Below, piece after piece: positions 1 through 41,027 of a DNA stretch of 64,000 bases (position 1 is the first letter of the stretch; every line of letters begins with the position of its first letter). Source of the stretch: Brevibacillus brevis (lineage in GTDB: Bacteria > Bacillota > Bacilli > Brevibacillales > Brevibacillaceae); assembly GCF_031583145.1 (NCBI RefSeq), contig NZ_CP134050.1:3795501-3859500 (forward strand). The letters are read 5' to 3'. The translations under genes and the position numbers were made by a program. Below the pieces are notes generated by a model. That model searched no databases, had not been told where the DNA came from, and saw only the letters and a list, made by a program, of their open reading frames with translations.

Positions 1-444
1 GGGCATGGTCCGCACGTCGCCTGATCGCTGGATCTCGGCTATCCACTGCTCCAATCGCTTCGTAATCGCAGGTGTGGCAGGCCCCGCGTAATCGGGGATG
101 TACTTCATCCCGTTGTATTCCGGAGGGTTGTGGCTCGCGGTGATCATCACGGCTCCGCTCGCCGCGAAGTGCTTGACTCCGAAGGCAACAGCAGGAGTCG
201 GCGCCGCTTCGTTGACCAGATAGGTGCGAATCCGGTTAGCCGTGAGGACGCGTACGACCTCCTCCGCAAAGCGGCCGCCCAGAAAACGGGTGTCGTGGCC
301 GACGAGAATAGCCTGCTCCTGTCGGCCTGTCTCTATCGTATAGCTGGCGATCGCCTGAGCGACGATCCGCACATTTTCCATCGTGAAGTCCTCTGCCACG
401 ATGGCACGCCAACCGTCCGTACCGAATCGGATCGCACTCTTCAT
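1..444 (-). CDS. Phosphoglucomutase/phosphomannomutase family protein, 5' part only
   Basis: This is the N-terminal 148 residues of an alpha-D-phosphohexomutase, which interconverts hexose-6-phosphate and hexose-1-phosphate through a phosphoserine. The rest lies beyond the left edge. Residues 7-13 read FGTDGWR, the family's N-terminal signature, and TASHNP at 102-107 is the active-site loop with Ser104 as the phosphorylated serine. HDTR at about 50-53 matches the conserved VGxDxR stretch. The ATG at 444 follows a purine-rich GGAGAG ribosome site. The gene starts 17 bases after the GH15-like gene stop, so it is the last visible gene of the sugar operon. It probably supplies the sugar-1-phosphate used by the nucleotidyltransferase two genes upstream, whose own mutase domain looks dead. 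Glucose versus mannose specificity cannot be read here. Confidence 0.9.
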   Translation of the reverse strand, partial: MKSAIRFGTDGWRAIVAEDFTMENVRIVAQAIASYTIETGRQEQAILVGHDTRFLGGRFAEEVVRVLTANRIRTYLVNEAAPTPAVAFGVKHFAASGAVMITASHNPPEYNGMKYIPDYAGPATPAITKRLEQWIAEIQRSGDVRTMP

Positions 445-461
445 TTTCTCTCTCCTCTCCC

Positions 462-2423
462 TTACGTCAGCTCTTTCACCTTCTCCAAATAGCGCAGCAC
501 GGTCGCGACAAACGTCGCATGCGACCAGGTCAGGGGAGCGACTGACACCGGTGCTCCTGTGTACGGATCGAGCTGCTCGGACAGCACTCCGCTTTGCAGC
601 GCATGACGAACGACCCAGCTCAGCCTGCTCTTCGGCTCCTGCAGCTCTTCAATCGTCCGCGCCTTGGCGATCTCATAGTCGGCCACCCACAGCGTGCAGA
701 TGATCCACGGATTTCCCGGCACCCTTTCCGTGTCGTGCGACTTTTTGAAATAGGCATCGCCCTGGTAGCGTGCAAACCCACCCACTTCGGTGTCCACCCG
801 AAGACTGCGCTTTACCGCCTCCATCGTGCTTAGGACGCGAGGATCATCCACGGGCAACACGCCAAGCGCATAAACGGAAAACAAACTGCTCTCCACGGTA
901 AAATCTTTGTCGATACGGCCGTCCTTGCGCAGGTAAATGCCGCGCAAAAACCTGCCCAGCCCGGGGTCGTACAGATGGGTCAGCATGGCTTCCCGGATGC
1001 GCTCGGCTCCTTCATCGTACCGCCTGTAGCGACGGTCGTCGCCGAACAGCTGCGCAAAGCGGGCAGCAGCCTTTAGCCCGGCAAACACCGTCGCGCTGGT
1101 AAACGTAAAAATCCCTCTGCGTTCCTCCCACAGGTCGTAGCTCGGCTTCGGCAGCTGCAGAGTCGGCTCGATGTACTGGAGCAGAAACCGCGCTGCCGGA
1201 CGTACGAGCGTCGGGTACAGCGCCTGGCAATCCTCGATCTGCTTCCCGCATTTGTATTGCTCCCACAAGGCGTACAAAACCAAGGCCGTCTCATCCTCCT
1301 GGATAGGCAGCTGGATTTCTCCGTCGGACAAATACGGGTGCCAGCTCGATCCCACAGAGCCGTCCGGGTTGTACTTGTGCAGCAAATAGCCTTCTTCGTT
1401 CAGGGCGTCCGCGCAAAAGCGGAAGAAAGGGGCGACTACGCCGGTATAGCCTGCCTTTGCCATGGCGCACGCGATCAGAGCGCCGTCCCGCGGCCACATG
1501 TAGCTGTAATGGTCGCGGTTGAACTGGAGGATGTCAGAGTCGTTGGCCGCCAGGATCGCTCCGTGCTGGTCGATCTGGGTACGGACCAAGAGCAGGCTGG
1601 TTTTGTACAGCTGGACGACCTCCGGCGGCAAGTCGGCGAAATCCCGCTCTTCCTTGTTCACCCATCGCTGCCAGTAGACGGCCACCCGGTTCAATAGACG
1701 CTCCGGATCGCTTTCCAGTACGTATTGGTTCAACGTCTTGACCGCCTCGTACGATTCGCCGATGCACATCCAGTAATCCAGTGAGGCTTCGCCCTGCGGC
1801 GGCAGCATCAGGTGAAAAGAAATGGTGCTGTCGACCGAGCCTTGGGCGATCGGATTGCCGGAGAGGATTCCGTCCTCCGCATCCCGCCACGTCCCTTCGG
1901 CGTAGTTGAAACGTTTGATGCCGAGGCTGTACTGGTCGATGCCGGCCTCATGCGTCTTCCCGTTGACCATGATGTACACGTTGCGTTTATAGTGATAGAC
2001 GGTGCGCAGCACGGGATCGTACACGGCGGTGTCTCCCACCTCGGTTTCGTTGAGGCTAAAGTCATGGTTGAAAAACAGCCGCACTTCCCTGGCCTCGCTG
2101 GCCAGATTGCGCACCCGGATCTTCTTCAGATAGATCGGATCCCGCTGGTGTACGCCATCCGCGATCCGCAGCGAGAGGCCCAGATGATCGTGCCGGGCGT
2201 GCACGTCGGTGACGAGAGACTCTTTTCCGTAGCCGAGCGAGCGTCTCCATCCGTCCTCATCCAGCCAGGAAAAGCGACCCTGCACCCACACCCCCAGCTT
2301 GCTGAAATGCCCTCCCACGTGATTCAGCTGCCCCACATAAGGGAAGTAGAGATCGCGCATGTGAAGCCTGTCGTCAAAGTTGATCAGCAGTCTTCCGTTT
2401 CCGACCACGAGCGGTCTCGGCAT
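462..2423 (-). CDS. GH15-like glycoside hydrolase (glucoamylase/glucodextranase type), cytoplasmic
   Basis: This 653-residue protein has an N-terminal beta-sandwich-like part (about 1-260) and a C-terminal (alpha/alpha)6-barrel part typical of GH15. The barrel shows the WPRDG motif (MWPRDG near residue 310), a DLWEER stretch where the general acid glutamate is expected, and a GNPW segment near the C-terminus. GH15 enzymes release glucose from non-reducing ends of alpha-glucans; some members act on trehalose or dextrins. No signal peptide is visible, so it should act inside the cell. The start MPRPL was chosen because AAAGGAAG lies 8 bases upstream; an upstream in-frame ATG at 2465 would overlap the preceding gene. 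Its neighbours (GH57-GT4 fusion, nucleotidyltransferase, mutase) suggest it trims a cytoplasmic polymer, but the substrate is an inference. Confidence 0.82.
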   Translation of the reverse strand: MPRPLVVGNGRLLINFDDRLHMRDLYFPYVGQLNHVGGHFSKLGVWVQGRFSWLDEDGWRRSLGYGKESLVTDVHARHDHLGLSLRIADGVHQRDPIYLKKIRVRNLASEAREVRLFFNHDFSLNETEVGDTAVYDPVLRTVYHYKRNVYIMVNGKTHEAGIDQYSLGIKRFNYAEGTWRDAEDGILSGNPIAQGSVDSTISFHLMLPPQGEASLDYWMCIGESYEAVKTLNQYVLESDPERLLNRVAVYWQRWVNKEERDFADLPPEVVQLYKTSLLLVRTQIDQHGAILAANDSDILQFNRDHYSYMWPRDGALIACAMAKAGYTGVVAPFFRFCADALNEEGYLLHKYNPDGSVGSSWHPYLSDGEIQLPIQEDETALVLYALWEQYKCGKQIEDCQALYPTLVRPAARFLLQYIEPTLQLPKPSYDLWEERRGIFTFTSATVFAGLKAAARFAQLFGDDRRYRRYDEGAERIREAMLTHLYDPGLGRFLRGIYLRKDGRIDKDFTVESSLFSVYALGVLPVDDPRVLSTMEAVKRSLRVDTEVGGFARYQGDAYFKKSHDTERVPGNPWIICTLWVADYEIAKARTIEELQEPKSRLSWVVRHALQSGVLSEQLDPYTGAPVSVAPLTWSHATFVATVLRYLEKVKELT

Positions 2424-2436
2424 GCCTTCACTTCCT

Positions 2437-4812
2437 TTATTGATATTCCGCGATGCGCCTCGCATAGGTGGTTGCGAGTGTCGCTGCAGTCTCCGCTGTC
2501 GCGCCTTGCGTTATCACTTTTACATGGGAATCTTCCGTGTCAGGCAGGATCAGGACCCAGCCCCCCGCATCGTACACCTTGATCCCGTCCACCAGCTCCA
2601 GCAGCTTCCCTTTGTTTTCTTCCAGCATCTTTCGCATGACCTTTCCTTTGGAGGTCCATGGGCAGAATACCGTCTTTTTCTCCATGTGGCAGGATGGCAA
2701 GAGCTCTGTGAGCACGCTGAGCGGCTTTTCCTCCTTGGCCAGGTAAGAGAGGATGCGCAGGAGGCTGTATACCGCGTCAAACATGGGGTGGAAGCGTTCG
2801 CCCAAAGAGACTTCCATCATCGCCCGCGGGGACACCTTGGTACGAACGACTTCCAGCTGGAGCAGCTGGGCGAGATGCTCCAGCTCCATCGGGGCGCTGA
2901 CGGGCAGCCCGATCTTGCTGTGGATGCCGCTGCACGACAGCAGCTGCAGGGCGATGAGCTGTTCCGCTGTCAGCTTTTCCCCGCGCTCGGTAAACAGCGA
3001 GAAGTGCTCGCCGTTTTTGTCGAGCCGCACGCCAAGGTCGGCTTCGTGCTTCATGACACCTTCCTGGATCGCTCCGTATTGCACGTTCACCCCGAGCGTG
3101 TCAAAGAGCGGGGCCAAAAACGCTGGCGTGAACCGTGGCTCGCACTCGACGAGCAGCCGGAACCGCTGCCGCCGAATGCCCGCTGTATCGATCCGCTGGG
3201 AGAGCGCACGCAAATAGGCCTCCTGCACCTGATGCTCCACGTGCAATTGTCCCAAGTGGTGGAGACTTCGCACATACGTCTCTTGCCAATAGGCATTTTC
3301 AATCTTCCGCTCCACGTCGCGGGAGACCGGGAGTCCGTCCTGGTCGACGAACTGGATGACGATCTCCTTGTCTTCAAGCGGTTCTGTCATGAAAATATGG
3401 ATGCCGCCTGCGCATTGCAGGCTGGACACGCCGAATCTCATCAACGGCGAATTGCCGATGCCGAGGTCGACGGTATCGATTCCGGAGGAGCACAGGCTCG
3501 TCATGACGCTGTGCTTGAGCAGCTGGGCAAATGGATGCGCGCATGCCGAAAGGGCGATCCGGCTTCCTGCCTGAAGCAAATAAGCGTACGACGCAGCGAG
3601 GCGGGTGACGAACTCGGGCGTAATTTCCACATTTCCCATTCCCTTGATGCCATTCGTGCCGAACAAATTTTTCGTCTGTTTCGTGCCGTAGATCAGGGAA
3701 GTCGTGACGATCGCGCTCTCTCCCACATCTTTGTCCGGCCAGATCTTGACCCCGGCCTTCACCACGGACTTGGAGGCAATCCGGCAGTTGTCCCCGATCA
3801 CTGCTCCTTCGCCCAGCATGACGGAATCGGCGATCTGCACCTTGCGGCAAAGCGTCGTTCCGTTTATTTCCGTCTTCTTGCCGACGATCGTGTTTTCCCA
3901 CACAATCGCCTGAGAGAGCCTGGTCCCGGAAGCGACTACCGTATTGGTGCCCAGGATGGAATAAGGGCCGATTGCGACGCCGGACTGCAGATGGACGTTT
4001 TCCCCGATGTAGACGGGTCCTTCCAGCCGCACGGACGAGTCGATCCGCACGTGATTTTCCAGATAGATGCGCGGTGCGATTTCTTTCGCTTTGATCTCCA
4101 GGTGGACTTTGCCGTCGAGCAGGTCGAACTGCGCCTGGCGGTAGACCTCCAGCGATCCGATGTCCGACCAGTACCCGTCTGCCGCATAGCCGTACATCGG
4201 TTTTCCTTCCCGCAAAAAGAAGGGGAACACTTCCTTGCTGAAATCGACTTCCCTTTCGTCCTCGATGTACGAGAGGACTTCCGGCTCGAAGATGTACATG
4301 CCCGTATTGACGGTATCGCTGAACACTTCCGCCCAGGTCGGCTTCTCCAAAAAACGGATGATCCGCCCGCTTTCGTCGGTCATGACCACACCGAATTCAA
4401 GCGGTGTCTCCACCTTTGTCAAGATCAGCGTCGCGAGGGATTGCTTCTGTTCGTGAAAGCGGATGGCCGCCGTAAGATCGATGTCCGTCAACGTATCGCC
4501 GCTGATGACGATAAACCGTTCGTCAAGGAAGTCTGCGCAGTTTTTCACGCTGCCTGCCGTTCCGAGCGGCGTCGTCTCCTCAAAGTAGACCAACGATACG
4601 CCATAGCGGGAACCGTCGCCAAACTCGCTCTTGATCGCATCCGGCAAATACTGCAGGGTAACGGCAATCTCCGTAATGCCGTGCTTTTTTAAGAGATCAA
4701 TCGTGTACTCCATGCACGGACGGTTCAACAGAGGGACCATCGGTTTGGGGGTATGGGACGTTAACGGACGCAGACGGGTTCCTTTGCCGCCAGCCATGAT
4801 TACTGCCTTCAT
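2437..4812 (-). CDS. Sugar nucleotidyltransferase, left-handed beta-helix and degenerate phosphomannomutase domain
   Basis: This is a 791-residue three-part protein. Residues 1-235 are a nucleotidyltransferase of the mannose-1-phosphate guanylyltransferase/glucose-1-phosphate nucleotidyltransferase type, with [11 protein letters not shown] at 8-18 and KPM at 23-25. Residues about 245-375 are hexapeptide-like repeats of a left-handed beta-helix. Residues about 384-791 resemble a phosphohexomutase that begins with FGTNGIKG, but the catalytic serine loop is replaced by [11 protein letters not shown] (468-478) and the metal loop by LDKNGE (597-602). The mutase part is therefore probably inactive. 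The ATG at 4812 has an ideal AAGGAGG site; open frame upstream overlaps the GH57-GT4 gene and is not used. GDP-mannose or an NDP-glucose are both possible products; the operon context favours an alpha-glucan donor. Confidence 0.88.
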
Positions 4813-4846
4813 CAATTCTTCCTCCTTCGTGGGTGCTGACACCTCA

Positions 4847-7717
4847 TCACAACTGACAGACTGTTTCGTATCTATGATATTTTGGGGAAACGACATCCAG
4901 CATCTGGTATTGCTCGGATGTTTGCCGTGCCAGATCGGCCCAGTCGTATTTGATCCGGACGTCCTCCAGCGCTCGCTGCGCCAATTGCCGCCGGACATCG
5001 GGGGCCCCCAGCAACCATCGCAGCTGATTGGCCAACGATTCCACATCGCCGGTATACATCATCGCTCCGTTTTCTCCGTGTCGGACGATCTCGCGCAGCC
5101 CGCCAGTATCCGCGACGAGCAGCGGAGTGCCGTGAGCCATAGCTTCCAGGGCGACGATGCCGAACGGCTCATACAGACTGGGAAATACCGCTACGTCCGC
5201 CATCCGGAACAACTCGTTTCTCTGCTCATCGGAGACAAAGCCGAGAAAACGCACCTTTTTTGCAATCCCCAAACGCTCAGCCATCCCTTTTAGTTCATCT
5301 GCCTGCGGTCCCTTTCCCGCGATCAACAGCTTCGCTTCGGGAAACTCCCATCCAATTCGCGCCAATGCCTCCAGCAGCAGATGCACGCCTTTCTCGCGCA
5401 CCAGCCTTCCGACGAAAAAGAGCAACGGGCCAGTTCCTACGCCCAGCTCCCTACGCAGCTCCTCACTCGCTGTCGGAACCGAATCAGGCATTTCTACCCC
5501 GTTGAAGACCACACTGACTTTTTCCTGCGGGACTCCGAAGAGCCTCCTCACTTCCCCTTCCATATAGCGGCTGCACACGATGACGCGGTCAGAAGCAGCA
5601 ATCAGCGCGCGCTCGCACTCGTGAATCCTTTGCTGCAGCGGGGTGTGGATGCCTTGATGGCGGCCGTGCTCCAAAGCGTGGATCGTCGTGATGAGCGGAA
5701 CGGACAGCCGCTGCTTGAGCTCCATCGCAGCCCAGCCTACGAGCCAGTCATGGGCGTGAATCACGTCAGCCTCCAGTCCTTGGCTCTCCAGTCGCTCCGC
5801 TGCATCGACGATCGCCAGGTTCAGCTGAAAGACCCATTGCATGAAGTCTTCCTGCTGCCATGGCTGATAGCTGTACAGACGATGCACATGAATGCCGTCT
5901 ACGATTTCCTGTCCCGCAGATGCACCCGTCGCTGCTGTGAGGACGTGCACCTCTGTCCCCTGGCACACGAGCTGCCGTGCCAATTCGTAGACCGCCCGCC
6001 CCAACCCGCCGACGACGTGTGGAGGAAATTCCCAACTGAGCATCCATACCTTGCGTCCTGCTTGCCGGGATTGGCTTGCCGCGACCATTTGATGCGATAC
6101 GTTCACTCTATGCGAACGAAGCGGCAAATAGTACGTCTCATCCAGCGTCGGGAACAGCGGGTACGCCGCTTCCAGCTCGGCAAGCCTCCCTTCCTCGATC
6201 GATCCCGTCCGTACCATCTCCAAGAGTTCGCCAAAGCGCACGAGATGATCGTGAAACCGGCGTACGGCGTAATCCACCACCGTCTGACCGTCCAGGATGA
6301 AAGCCCAGTCGCTGCTTTGCGCCAGCATCAGCTCGCGCGCGGCCTGCCTGAGACACCTGCTTCTGAGAGCGGTCTCGGACCCGCCTGACGCACTCGCCAT
6401 CTGGCAGCTGTGCACCGCTGCAATCAGATCTCGCTCGGCCTGATGCAAATGGCGATACATCCACCCATTGCGCTCGTTCAACCAGACTTCACCGTAGCCG
6501 TTTCGTCCCCAGGTGGACATCGGCAGACGGGCACGGTCCTGTTCGGGATACAGCGTCAAATATTCCGAAGGGGTGATCAATTGCACTTGCTTCGAATCGC
6601 ACACCGTCTTGCGCAGGAAAAAATCGAGGAATTGGGGGCCTTCATACCACCAATGTCCGAACAGCTCTGCATCGTAAGTGGCGACGACCAGCGGCTTGCG
6701 GTCCAGCCACGCCGCTGCCTCCTCGACCTGCCGCTCCCGGTGGTACAGGAAATGCCCCGCGTGAACGGCGGCTTTTTCCCGTGCCCATGTCGGCTCGTAC
6801 CAGTCCTTTTGCGAGTCCTTTCCCGTGATTCGATAGTATTTCAGTCCGGTATTGACGCGTATGCCATCCGGATGTATGTATGGCGCGATGTAGGCCATTT
6901 CCCGATCAAAGCCGATATCGCGGTAATATTCCCGATAGTCGTAATCGCCCGGATACCCGTCAAAAGAGCTCCAGACTTGCCTTGCAGCCTGGTCGTCCCG
7001 GGCAAACGCAGCGACGTCGTGAGGTGTAAAAAGCGGTGCGTACAAGCCGCGCATCGGCGTGGGTGTCGCATGCCGAATCGTATGGCTGTCGACGAAGAAA
7101 TAGCGGAGGTCCGCTTCCTTCAGCAGACGGTCAAGTCCGGGCGTGTAGGCGCACTCCGGCAGCCAAATCCCTTGCGGACGCCTCCCGAGAATCCGCTTGT
7201 GCGTGTCGATGCCCACCTGCAGCTGAGCCCGAATGGCTTCCTCCGTTTCCACAAACGGAAGAAAAGCGTGAGTCGCGGCGCAAGTAATCAGTTCGACGCA
7301 TCCGCTCTGCTGCACGCGTTTCAGCCCTTCGACAAGCTGAAAGTCTAGCTTCCGGCAGTAGGCCGTGATCTCGCGGAAGCGCTCCAGGTACATTTTTGCC
7401 AGGCGATGCTCCCTTGGTTCCGAAGCCGTCCGTTTCACTTCTTTTCCGGCCAGCTCCACCGTCCTCGCCAAATGGGCCTGGAAACGCGAGATCACGAGCT
7501 CGTCTGTCAGCATGGACAGGAGGGTAGGGGAAACAGCAAGCGTCATGCGAAAATCGATGCCGTCCGCGAGCAGCTTGTCGAACACCATCAGCAGCGGGAT
7601 GTACGACTCCAGCATGGCTTCGTACACCCATCGCTCTTCCAGGCAATCGTCCCGGTCCCCGTGCCGGACGTACGGCAGATGGGCGTGCAGCACGAGGGAG
7701 AGATAACCGTTGTGCAC
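4847..7717 (-). CDS. GH57 alpha-glucan branching enzyme fused to GT4 glycosyltransferase
   Basis: This 956-residue protein joins two enzymes. Residues 1-540 form a GH57 1,4-alpha-glucan branching-enzyme-type domain: HAHLPY (11-16), WLPECAY with nucleophile Glu188, [11 protein letters not shown] with acid Asp349, and [12 protein letters not shown] (403-414). Residues 556-940 form a GT4 retaining glycosyltransferase resembling bacterial glycogen synthase: [12 protein letters not shown] (562-573), [10 protein letters not shown], and the EX7E motif EPFGIVALE (850-858). One polypeptide could thus both elongate and branch an alpha-glucan. The GTG at 7717 is preferred because GAGG sits 8 bases upstream; a GTG nine bases earlier overlaps that site. 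It starts 14 bases after the DUF4912 gene. No signal peptide is present. Confidence 0.92.
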
Positions 7718-7731
7718 CGAATACACCTCAC

Positions 7732-8379
7732 TTAATCGTTTGATTTCGAGTAGAGGGAGTACGAGGAAAAATTCTCAAACCACGCTGGCGAAGAGGGGTC
7801 GCGAGCAGGTTCGACCAGCGGCTCTCCCCAGGCGGCATTTGTATTTCGCGGCGTTTCCACCGGCTCGGAGCGCAGGATCGGACAAAAGCGTCCCTGCTCG
7901 AACAAGCCGAAGTCAACGATGTACGTGCGCCCAGGCTGCACCTCGCGCACATACCAGGAATGGGAGTCCTCCAGCACGTGGACGTCCCTTGTGGAATGGG
8001 CGTTGTGACCATCAAAGATTCGCTCGGTCACATCGTATATCCGCAGCCCCTTTTGGATCTGGCGGTAATCGCTCTGCAGGTACGAGGCGACCATGCGCAT
8101 TCGTGGCCACGTGATCTCCCAGTACACAAACAGGACAGTTGGACCTTGTGCCATGACCTTGACGACATCTCGCCCGTAAAACGCCGGAAGACGCCATTCG
8201 TGCTGCGGACGCTTGGGGGCACCCTGACGTTCTGCAGCACCGGCGTTCCGGTCCGCCTCCGCTCTGGCCCTGTCCTTTTGCAGCTGGTACTTGACTTGCC
8301 CGACTGTCAGCCCGCATTCTTTGGCAATTTGTGCAATCGATTTTGACTCTGACCGAAGTTCGCGAATTTTTTCCAGCAT
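7732..8379 (-). CDS. DUF4912 domain protein with N-terminal HTH-like segment
   Basis: This 215-residue protein is first in the visible sugar operon. Residues 1-35 look like a resolvase/homeodomain-type helix-turn-helix (IAQIAKECGLTVGQVKYQL). Residues about 65-180 match the DUF4912 pattern, with VLFVYWEI and the HSWYVREVQPG/YIVDFG strands. DUF4912 proteins are often found next to GH57 or other alpha-glucan genes, but their biochemical role is unsettled; a carbohydrate-binding-like fold has been suggested. The ATG at 8379 has AAAGGAG at the right distance. The gene is followed within 14 bases by the GH57-GT4 fusion, so the two are co-transcribed. It may bind the polymer, regulate the operon, or both; the function is not assigned. 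Confidence 0.8.
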   Translation of the reverse strand: MLEKIRELRSESKSIAQIAKECGLTVGQVKYQLQKDRARAEADRNAGAAERQGAPKRPQHEWRLPAFYGRDVVKVMAQGPTVLFVYWEITWPRMRMVASYLQSDYRQIQKGLRIYDVTERIFDGHNAHSTRDVHVLEDSHSWYVREVQPGRTYIVDFGLFEQGRFCPILRSEPVETPRNTNAAWGEPLVEPARDPSSPAWFENFSSYSLYSKSND

Positions 8380-8814
8380 CGTCGAGCGCTCCTTTCCGCC
8401 ACTTTCCTGTCTGCTGCTTGCTGGCGATTCATTTTTGTATTAACCCACTGCCATCATAGCCAATGCCTGCAACAAAGGCTGTCGAATGCTGGATGCACTT
8501 CCCTTCTTCTTTTGTCGATAAACGGTCATGTTTTCGTCACTGAAGAACAAAAGTCGAGGGCACCAAAACAAAGATCGTTTTCGCGCGTCGAACAACCGCC
8601 TATTCTCATCTTACATACGGGTTCTGGCTTCGATTCATTCCTTTATGAAATAGGCTTCCGGCTTTTTCAAAAAGCCCATGAATGCAAGCGTTATCAACAT
8701 CTCACGGCTTCCGAGCCCGTTTCCCCGATTAGAAAACCCGGCTACGCGATGTTTTTTGACGGTGCCGCTGTCGCCCTTATACTGGATCGGAATTTTATAC
8801 ATGCCGATCTGTGC
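8380..8814. other. Intergenic region upstream of the sugar operon
   Basis: No convincing gene is seen between the DUF4912 start and the terminator of the acyl-CoA synthetase gene. A plus-strand open frame (8512-8877) lacks a ribosome site, runs through the terminator hairpin and resembles nothing recognised. The promoter of the sugar operon should lie here, but no clear -35/-10 pair could be fixed by eye. Confidence 0.5.
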
Positions 8815-8889: not shown

Positions 8890-10482
8890 TCAGTTGACCA
8901 GTCTGTCTTTCTCCTGCCAAAACGGCTGCCGCAGCTCGACCTTTCGTATCTTTCCGGATGCGGTTTTGGGCAGCTCGGGTGCGAAGCTGAATCCTTTCGG
9001 GCATTTGAAGGCCGCCATTCTTTCCCGGCAGAAACGATCCAGCTCCACTTCATCCGCCTCCATGCCTGGCCGCAGCACGATAACGGCATGAGGCACTTCT
9101 CCCCACTTTTCATGGGGAACGGAAACCACGGCAGCCTCCAGCACCGCCGGATGCTCGTACAAAATCCCTTCCACCTCGATCGAGGAGATGTTTTCTCCTC
9201 CACTGATGATGATGTCCTTTTTGCGGTCTACAATGTCGATGTAGCCCTCTGCATCGATCGTCGCCATGTCTCCAGTCCGGTACCAACCGTTTACAATGGC
9301 CGCTGCTGTGGCCTCCGGCTGTTTCCAGTAGCCTTCCATGACCATGTTTCCACGGGCGATCACTTCCCCGATGCTTCGACCGTCGCAAGGCACATCCTTG
9401 TCCTCGTCGTCGACGACACGAACTTCCACATTGAGCATAGGGACGCCGGCCTTGGCCTTCAGGCGGAAGCGGGTCTCTTCGCTTTCGTTGGCCAGATGGT
9501 GCTTGATGGGCGATACCGTGATGAGCGGAGCGCATTCCGTCATGCCGTACACCTGCAGGAACTCCCAGCCGAGCTGCTGCTCCACCGTCCGCACAAAAGC
9601 GGTAGGCGGTGCCGATCCGGCGATGACCACCCGCATCGGGCCAGTCGTCTTGTCTTCGTGAAAACGCGGCTCGTTGATGAGCATGTTCAGTACTGTCGGG
9701 GCCATGCAGGCTACCGTCACGCCTTCTCTTTTGATCAAGGAATGAATCAGCGGCGGGTCGATTTTGCGCAGCATGACGTGCTTGGCACCTACCGCCGTAT
9801 AGGAGAACGGGGTTCCCCAACCGTTCACGTGAAACATCGGCAACGTGTGCAGCAAAACATCGCTGTCGCTGGCCCGGGTATGGAACATCGTGTTTTGCAT
9901 GTTGAAAAACAGCGTGCGATGCGAGTGCATGACGCCTTTCGGTTTGCCCGTCGTGCCGCTGGTGTAGAGGATTGTCGCCAAGTCTGTCTCCTCCACTTCA
10001 TCAACGCACGGCTCGGTGCTCTCCTCGCCCAAGAGCTCCGGATACGAATCCCAGTCCGCCCGCTTGCCCGAAGTCCCCCGGACAGGAATCGCCACGAACC
10101 GGGATACCGTCGTGAGCGAAGAGAGGATGGGTTCTACGAGGGGAATGAGCTCATCGTCCGCAAAAAACAGCTTGGCCTCGGCGTGCTCGATGATGTACAA
10201 ATAGTCGTGCGGCAACAGTCTCGTGTTCAGCGGTACGACCACCGCCCCCAGCTGAAAGCAGGCGTAAAAGAGCTGAAGCATGGCAGCCGTATTGGGAGAC
10301 AGGACGGCCACCCGATCCCCTTTCACCACCCCCATTCGCTTCATCGCCCGAGCCAACTGGTGGACTTCCTGCTGAAACTGGCGATACGTCCAGCGTCTGT
10401 CCCCTTCCACAATCGATTCGACATCCGGATAAAGCAAGACGGCGCGTCGCAGTGTATCATCCATGCGCAAAGCAACATGCAT
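8890..10482 (-). CDS. Long-chain fatty acid-CoA ligase / AMP-dependent acyl-CoA synthetase
   Basis: This 530-residue ANL-superfamily enzyme activates a carboxylic acid with ATP and transfers it to CoA. The P-loop YTSGTTGKPKGV is followed by the HSH stretch, YGMTE (A5 motif) and YRTGD (A7). The C-terminal lysine motif GKIRKVELR is near the end, so both N-terminal and swivelling C-terminal domains are intact. Length and motifs fit medium/long-chain acyl-CoA synthetases of Bacillales; the chain length is not readable. The ATG at 10482 (MHVALRMDD) follows GAAGGG; an earlier in-frame start at 10545 has no site. It lies about 100 bases downstream of the MFS exporter gene on the same strand and is closed by the terminator at 8815-8857. 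No functional link to the exporter is evident. Confidence 0.88.
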   Translation of the reverse strand: MHVALRMDDTLRRAVLLYPDVESIVEGDRRWTYRQFQQEVHQLARAMKRMGVVKGDRVAVLSPNTAAMLQLFYACFQLGAVVVPLNTRLLPHDYLYIIEHAEAKLFFADDELIPLVEPILSSLTTVSRFVAIPVRGTSGKRADWDSYPELLGEESTEPCVDEVEETDLATILYTSGTTGKPKGVMHSHRTLFFNMQNTMFHTRASDSDVLLHTLPMFHVNGWGTPFSYTAVGAKHVMLRKIDPPLIHSLIKREGVTVACMAPTVLNMLINEPRFHEDKTTGPMRVVIAGSAPPTAFVRTVEQQLGWEFLQVYGMTECAPLITVSPIKHHLANESEETRFRLKAKAGVPMLNVEVRVVDDEDKDVPCDGRSIGEVIARGNMVMEGYWKQPEATAAAIVNGWYRTGDMATIDAEGYIDIVDRKKDIIISGGENISSIEVEGILYEHPAVLEAAVVSVPHEKWGEVPHAVIVLRPGMEADEVELDRFCRERMAAFKCPKGFSFAPELPKTASGKIRKVELRQPFWQEKDRLVN

Positions 10483-40730: not shown

Positions 40731-41027
40731 CAGTCTTCACCTCCCGACTGCCCCCTTCTCTGGTCGCCAAGCGAGCTGTCCAGACGCCGCTGCAGGAATC
40801 ACCTAGCTTTAAATGGACTGAAACGGTTACTTGCACGTGCTAGTAAATGCAGTATATATCAATGTGTATGTAAAATCTGTCAGTTCTTGACGGTATATTT
40901 TTGGATTTTTTGTAGAAGTTTTTTTCGTTTTCATTTCAAATAAGTTCATTTAAAGTAAAATTTTCATATGGTAGATCCGGTTTCCTCCCAAGCCTCCGCT
41001 CTTGATCTTTGCCATAAGTGGTTGGAT
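40731..41027. other. Intergenic region between ftsZ terminator and spoIIGA
   Basis: This AT-rich region has no gene. It holds the candidate spoIIG promoter (40851-40883) and AT-rich upstream sequence where Spo0A boxes would be expected. Confidence 0.6.
40851..40883 (-). promoter_or_regulatory. Candidate Spo0A-type spoIIG promoter with long spacer
   Basis: CTGACA (40878-40883), 21 bases, TATACT (40851-40856) on the minus strand. The B. subtilis spoIIG promoter also has a too-long spacer (22 bases) and needs Spo0A-P. TGACAGA overlapping the -35 resembles a weak 0A box. Confidence 0.42.

Follow-up and report, generated by a model that had tools for sequence, protein, structure and literature searches.

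A five-gene row in Brevibacillus brevis is probably a Spo0A-controlled, non-classical glycogen system that serves the onset of sporulation. It lies at one end of the window, the 64,000-nucleotide stretch analyzed here (positions 3,795,501 to 3,859,500 of the 6.23-Mb genome), and encodes, in gene order, a DUF4912 protein, a GH57 branching-type enzyme fused to a GT4 glycosyltransferase (the fusion), a sugar nucleotidyltransferase carrying a mutase domain, a GH15 glucoamylase-type hydrolase, and a phosphohexomutase (Table 1). From the computed domains, conserved residues, gene order, and absence of the classical genes searched for, we infer the enzymatic steps, the donor nucleotide, and the structure of the polymer. 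The phosphohexomutase would supply glucose-1-phosphate, which the nucleotidyltransferase would convert to a nucleoside diphosphate glucose (NDP-glucose), with UDP-glucose the first guess and GDP- or ADP-glucose the alternatives. The GT4 half would build an alpha-1,4-glucan from NDP-glucose, the GH57 half would branch it within the same polypeptide, and GH15 would later break the store down to glucose by hydrolysis. DUF4912, with a helix-turn-helix (HTH) and an Fn3-like part, would act alongside the branching enzyme in an accessory or regulatory role, and transcription would start at a spoIIG-type sigma-A promoter answering to Spo0A~P. The proposed logic (activate glucose-1-phosphate, polymerize, branch, degrade) is that of the classical GlgC-GlgA-GlgB-GlgP pathway, as in the B. 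subtilis glg operon, for which sporulation is listed as a function (PMC10395257; citations here and below are to excerpts of the papers named). In contrast to that pathway, the polymerase here would be GT4, branching would reside in the same chain, and degradation would be hydrolytic.

No classical pathway was found in the window genome by a search that covered GT35, GH13, GT5, and GlgC and left aside GH77 and other minor glucan enzymes. GT35 glycogen phosphorylase (PF00343) and GH13 (PF00128) had zero matches, with models that detect their families in 12/14 and 13/14 control genomes, respectively. The GT5 model PF08323 matched only the fusion, and no protein exceeded the TIGR02091 cut-off for GlgC. 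Nor does any of the eight NTP_transferase genes in the genome read as GlgC: the seven outside the operon are by eye GalU, RmlA-long, ManC (two), GlmU-like (two), and RfbF, the RmlA-long one being the one scanned with NCBIfam. As to the GlgE pathway, no GH13 maltosyltransferase was found by PF00128, a GlgE-specific model not having been run. The original prediction of a glucan operon with no classic glycogen genes thus holds for the families searched, and a complete standard glg operon was looked for in the genome with a negative result.

The order DUF4912, GH57-GT4, nucleotidyltransferase, GH15 is kept in Brevibacillus, Fictibacillus, Thermincola, and other genomes across other Bacilli and clostridial lineages. 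Paenibacillus tyrfis has all four genes, with a wider gap ahead of GH15. As the order is found in many genera, it is not a product of chance. Among 200 genomes of the class, classical GlgP is present in 1 of the 39 with a canonical fusion vs 74 of the 161 others (p 5e-8). Counted by family, the contrast is 1/10 vs 21/34 (p 0.009), a fairer figure because genomes share ancestry. GlgC shows a similar skew, at 5/39 vs 74/161 (p 1e-4). In these counts, canonical and diverged fusions were sorted by hand, with four partial or split ones (G432, G407, G499, and G532) taken as canonical, and 11 genomes with weak PF00343 matches alone, 7 of them canonical, were not scored as GlgP. Classical GlgP is thus mostly missing where the canonical fusion is present.

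The fusion's closest named relative, with 69% identity, is that of Brevibacillus invocatus, from a genome of the same genus. Across 18 aligned fusions, E191 and D352 in the GH57 half are invariant, as are W33, W252, W406, and W415, and R774, K779, E853, and E861 in the GT4 half. We take E191 and D352 to be the catalytic Glu and Asp and the four GT4 positions to be catalytic as well, and the active sites invoked by the original prediction are to that extent borne out. The GH57 half aligns over its full length with the solved structure 2b5d (516 residues, E 5e-142), presumably of T. maritima origin. The features expected of a GH57 branching enzyme are present, namely the GH57 domain, BE_C, and the catalytic Glu and Asp positions. 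Among the 25 best NCBIfam models listed for the fusion, none was above its cut-off, and the GH57 branching equivalogs, named for Thermococcales and Thermus, reached 321.8 of 1000 and 291.6 of 920 bits. Some relatives carry altered forms. The GT4 part is split or frame-broken in two loci (L153 and L170), and the second GT4 half is missing in two others of family f153 (L196 by Pfam; L197 by BLAST). Truncated or decayed fusions (L196, L197, and L198-L200) adjoin genes that by eye are phosphate-transporter-like and PhoU-like, in genomes that match GlgC and GlgP.

The closest solved structure to the nucleotidyltransferase, 8x7s (E 1e-72), is deposited as a UTP-glucose-1-phosphate uridylyltransferase, followed in the structure comparison by an unspecified nucleotidyl transferase and then by mannose-1-phosphate guanylyltransferases. 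Its mutase domain, described in the original prediction as decayed, indeed lacks the TASHNP catalytic loop, which is absent from all 16 orthologues displaying that region (25 loci queried, 17 printed). With the loop missing in 16 orthologues, the loss is old. In GH15, the motifs YDLWEE and LSEQ would hold the acid and the base.

The neighbors of operon genes in relatives bear on the product. In two loci (L193 and L195), the gene immediately upstream of DUF4912 encodes an alpha-glucan phosphorylase (TIGR02094, ~1e-237), and in a third (L194) a phosphorylase homologue (PF00343) is found ~1.7 kb upstream, separated by a small frame on the opposite strand. In another genus of Brevibacillaceae, glgC-glgD-glgA is followed by a GH15 that is 67% identical to that of the window (L204:7867-13659), in a genome with no GlgP match. 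Both kinds of neighborhood point to an alpha-1,4-glucan, and the operon's product, if the enzymes act as predicted, is very probably glycogen-like. The original prediction of an alpha-linked polymer made, branched, and degraded by a route other than GlgA-GlgB-GlgC-GlgP gains support from the missing classical genes, the invariant residues, and these neighbors, with the chemistry remaining a prediction. The combination has a partial parallel in Sulfolobus acidocaldarius, where GH15 works in catabolism and glycogen is far lower in a GH57 mutant (PMC11046441). Polymerization there is by glycogen synthase, the excerpt mentions neither a fusion nor DUF4912, and GT4 genes in archaeal glycogen metabolism carry question marks in it.

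A second parallel is the mycobacterial pair Rv3031 and Rv3032, the latter of which we take to be a GT4. The same pair of activities is proposed for these separate genes, unlike the window's single chain, in which the two halves would act jointly. Rv3031 is a putative GH57 branching enzyme (PMC6629080), and Rv3032 serves methylglucose lipopolysaccharide, while glycogen in M. tuberculosis is made by GlgE (PMC4981310). By analogy, the operon might make a specialized cytoplasmic oligoglucan that GH15 trims, which we consider unlikely. That GH57 is paired with a glucosyltransferase in both systems fits such a product. However, inspection by eye of the operon and its conserved flanks, the parts of the genome examined for them, revealed no methyl- or acyltransferase, relatives associate the phosphorylase and glgC-glgD-glgA-GH15 with operon parts, and the canonical fusion and classical GlgP are largely exclusive. 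Even less probable, indeed very unlikely, is that the enzymes remodel imported maltodextrins without synthesizing a store, GT4 using another acceptor. In its favor, GH57 and GH15 do both work on pre-existing glucans, and none of the 25 best NCBIfam models listed for the fusion exceeds its cut-off. Against this stand the nucleotidyltransferase and mutase in the same gene row and the lack of any sugar transporter recognizable by eye in the operon or among its conserved neighbors. A glycogen-like store thus remains our preferred reading.

The B. subtilis spoIIG promoter has a spacer of 22 bases. In the window genome, the spacings between the boxes and the -10 element are N24 and N21 both upstream of the glucan operon and at spoIIG; the former has a perfect core box over its -35 position, and spoIIG here has weaker boxes. 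The Spo0A core motif is TGTCGAA (PMC3485338). A composite pattern, ACAAAAN{22,30}GACAN{20,23}TATRMT, has just two matches in the 64-kb window, these two promoters, and 0 in 100 shuffles, the -35 side having been relaxed to GACA and the pattern fixed after both promoters were seen. Throughout Brevibacillaceae, 12/12 promoters of operon-type DUF4912 genes read NNCGACAAAA-N24-TCGACA-N21/22-TAT(GAT/ACT), and 12 of 14 spoIIGA promoters read NNCNACAAAA-N23/24-NNGACA-N21/22-TATACT (L247 and L248 miss). The 12 leave out three of the 15 family genomes (G415, G446, and G557), which have a short DUF4912 only. Outside this family, the composite promoter occurs in three of four loci of family f162 (L205, L206, and L221, not L166), and spoIIG-type spacing was not seen in the other families. 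Off-target matches were found in L114 and L196 among 252 loci totaling 2.70 Mb, some overlapping.

Conservation of the boxes extends further. In an alignment of eight upstream regions, CGACAAAAGAAGAA is invariant and TTCGACA and the -10 elements are conserved. The corresponding predicted box, ATCGACAAAA, agrees with TTTTGTCGAA at 9/10 positions. The commonest 7-mers other than A-tracts in the upstream regions of 61 Bacilli loci (GACAAAA, TCGACAA, TGTCGAA, and CGACAAA) assemble into a Spo0A box. The strict core is present in 30/61 of these loci (30/60 with one duplicate, L074 = L218, removed), vs 17/413 for the remaining genes at these loci and an average of 4.0/61 in shuffles; the shuffles are the fairer control because the upstream stretches of the 413 genes are partly coding. 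Outside Brevibacillaceae, the strict core is found in 19/49 loci, with at least one boxed locus in f3, f8, f151, f154, f160, f162, f163, f164, f168, f169, f177, and Fictibacillus, and the box words there rank under A-rich words. Within the window, TGTCGAA occurs 15 times vs 10.4 expected, so that conservation alone carries the argument for the box. We consider control of the operon by Spo0A very probable, with binding and response predicted from sequence.

From the computed promoter geometry, we infer that this control is activating. Repression is the other direction to consider, Spo0A confining the operon to growth or early stationary phase and shutting it off as sporulation begins. Spo0A boxes do serve repression too, and spo0A's own boxes are mainly repressive in one model (PMC12090719). 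However, the box-to--10 spacing equals that of spoIIG in the same genome, and spoIIG is Spo0A-P-dependent (PMC6751060), which makes a repressed operon improbable, somewhat more so than an oligoglucan product.

Several observations weigh against a Spo0A-controlled glycogen system. Diverged fusions (<=43% identity) coexist with GlgP in 24/26 genomes, so strict mutual exclusion of fusion and glg genes, as an absolute rule, was rejected; five canonical-fusion genomes do have GlgC, and 7/39 have a weak PF00343 match. The top NCBIfam model for the nucleotidyltransferase, under its cut-off, is mannose-1-phosphate guanylyltransferase, and Rv3032 has a minor glycogen role (PMC4981310), which sits well with the oligoglucan alternative. 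No measured activity for a GH57-GT4 fusion was found in excerpts of the openly licensed literature. The stand-alone mutase changes frame beyond the window edge (L003:9503-9545, with the change at L003:9545), and the gene is therefore either broken or mis-sequenced in the assembly, which corrects the original account of the fifth gene. It is unbroken in 6/8 relatives' loci (L153, L155, L156, L160, L161, and L203), with no match in L157 and L158. Strict boxes are absent from all 26 clostridial-type loci (24 without two duplicates), from f144 (0/8), f153 (0/6), f5 (0/2), genus g337 (0/4), and Paenibacillus tyrfis, which indicates that the ancestral operon lacked Spo0A control. No box lies within 450 bases upstream of the L204 glgC operon. 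Finally, validation of the promoter genome-wide failed: TTCGACA-N20-23-TATRMT matched six sites, vs 0 for a reversed-pattern control, and the five others are not near recognizable sporulation genes by eye.

The DUF4912 protein has a predicted AlphaFold2 structure (mean pLDDT 86.4, pTM 0.59) with an N-terminal three-helix, HTH-type part (residues 2-51) and an Fn3-like beta-sandwich (72-170). Its closest structural neighbors are Fn3 domains (best Z 10.2; most align over 82-99 residues, at 2.4-3.8 A). The HTH match, to Sigma70_r4_2, is weak (E 0.0014) and under the Pfam cut-off; individual HTH models weakly match (E up to 0.1) as many as 13/41 DUF4912 members, and the HTH part is not common to all such proteins. 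Other members match Glucodextran_B (3/41) and Rho_N (2/41). Fn3 domains and many carbohydrate-binding modules (CBMs) are both beta-sandwiches. A glucan-binding role for DUF4912, for which a CBM-like fold was expected, was set aside: Fn3 domains were matched instead, and the 50 matches listed include no CBM. An invariant tryptophan may be an Fn3 core residue, and we therefore do not score it as a binding site. In other phyla, DUF4912 proteins (L086, L105, L090, and similar) have an extra C-terminal domain, and short versions of ~120-145 amino acids are common in the class, one being a second DUF4912 gene in the window genome (L004 ~9184-9492; G000:C1:3914183-3914491).

The association of DUF4912 with GH57 extends well beyond Bacilli. 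DUF4912 is directly upstream of GH57 in 68/74 testable loci, including ones from Omnitrophota, Nitrospirota, Verrucomicrobia, and clostridia. The sample is the best 80 of at least 587 loci, less six whose upstream sequence was too short; the DUF4912 profile had been built in part from 16 of the 80, and two with <900 bases upstream (L126 and L150) count among the 74 solely because DUF4912 was found. The misses are L077, L079, L100 (directly downstream), L129, L142 (overlapping an extended GH57 frame), and L152. Of the 200 genomes of the class, DUF4912 is present in 59/65 with any fusion vs 21/135 without; one DUF4912 missed by the position filter (L194) was found by Pfam in that genome (G521). 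The locus can also shrink around the protein. One relative (L158) retains DUF4912, the nucleotidyltransferase, and the mutase, with GH57-GT4 and GH15 gone from the locus, and three (L161-L163) retain DUF4912 and the mutase alone. In all four, DUF4912 and the mutase keep the spoIIG-type promoter though the glucan enzymes have left. DUF4912 may therefore have a role independent of these enzymes. We tentatively suggest, as a reading with the odds against it, that DUF4912 is a regulatory partner of bacterial GH57 branching enzymes and that its HTH form in Bacilli is a Spo0A-induced, glucan-responsive transcription factor tying glycogen to the decision to sporulate; this would explain why the protein and its promoter survive loss of the enzymes. 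Openly licensed literature, in the excerpts available, mentions DUF4912 in an unrelated context only.

As originally predicted, the operon comprises five frames in one direction, with domains confirmed by Pfam. The spacers in gene order from DUF4912 are 5, 34, 13, and 17 bases in the open reading frame list; the gaps of 13-34 bases first proposed stand for the last three, and the first can be 5 bases with the GTG start of the fusion. No N-terminus looks signal-like, in line with the predicted lack of signal peptides (judged by eye, no predictor having been run). Downstream neighbors are a kinase-like gene, lspA, rluD, and pyr genes (named by eye).

Table 1. Features of the glucan operon and of the promoters discussed (window coordinates)
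Feature	Positions	Strand	Basis
DUF4912 protein, 215 aa	7732..8379	-	PF16258 6e-29
GH57 branching-type enzyme + BE_C, fused to GT4, 959 aa, GTG start	4847..7726	-	PF03065 5e-40, BE_C 2e-30, Glycos_transf_1 3e-48
Sugar-nucleotidyltransferase + left-handed beta helix + loop-less mutase domain, 791 aa	2437..4812	-	NTP_transferase 9e-58, PGM_PMM_I 2e-18
GH15 glucoamylase-type hydrolase	462..2423	-	PF00723 4e-34; TIGR01577 1e-92, under model's cut-off
Phosphohexomutase, N-terminal part, TASHNP loop	1..444, runs past window edge (L003:9018-10444)	-	PGM_PMM_I 7e-40
spoIIG-type promoter, ACAAAA - N24 - TCGACA - N21 - TATGAT	8453..8515	-	Pattern match, Brevibacillaceae conservation
Perfect Spo0A core box TTCGACA (reverse complement of TGTCGAA), at -35 position	8480..8486	-	Sequence; core per PMC3485338
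Near-perfect predicted Spo0A box ATCGACAAAA	8510..8519	-	CGACAAAAGAAGAA invariant in 8 aligned genomes
Spo0A-like box TGACGAA	8533..8539	-	Found upstream in L154-L157 and L153 as well
spoIIGA promoter, positive control, same geometry	40851..40913	-	Pattern match

The spoIIG-type promoter and the wider DUF4912-GH57 pairing go beyond the pathway originally predicted, and no description of this operon was found in excerpts of openly licensed literature on GH57/GT4, glycogen, Spo0A, or sporulation. If the proposal is correct, spore formers whose gene counts suggest that they lack a glycogen pathway possess one assembled from unrelated enzymes, a single protein offers both the glycogen polymerase and the branching enzyme, and DUF4912 gains a testable partner. 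A non-classical glycogen operon would then be wired directly into the sporulation switch, and one could predict which Bacilli form sporulation glycogen although they lack glgBCADP.

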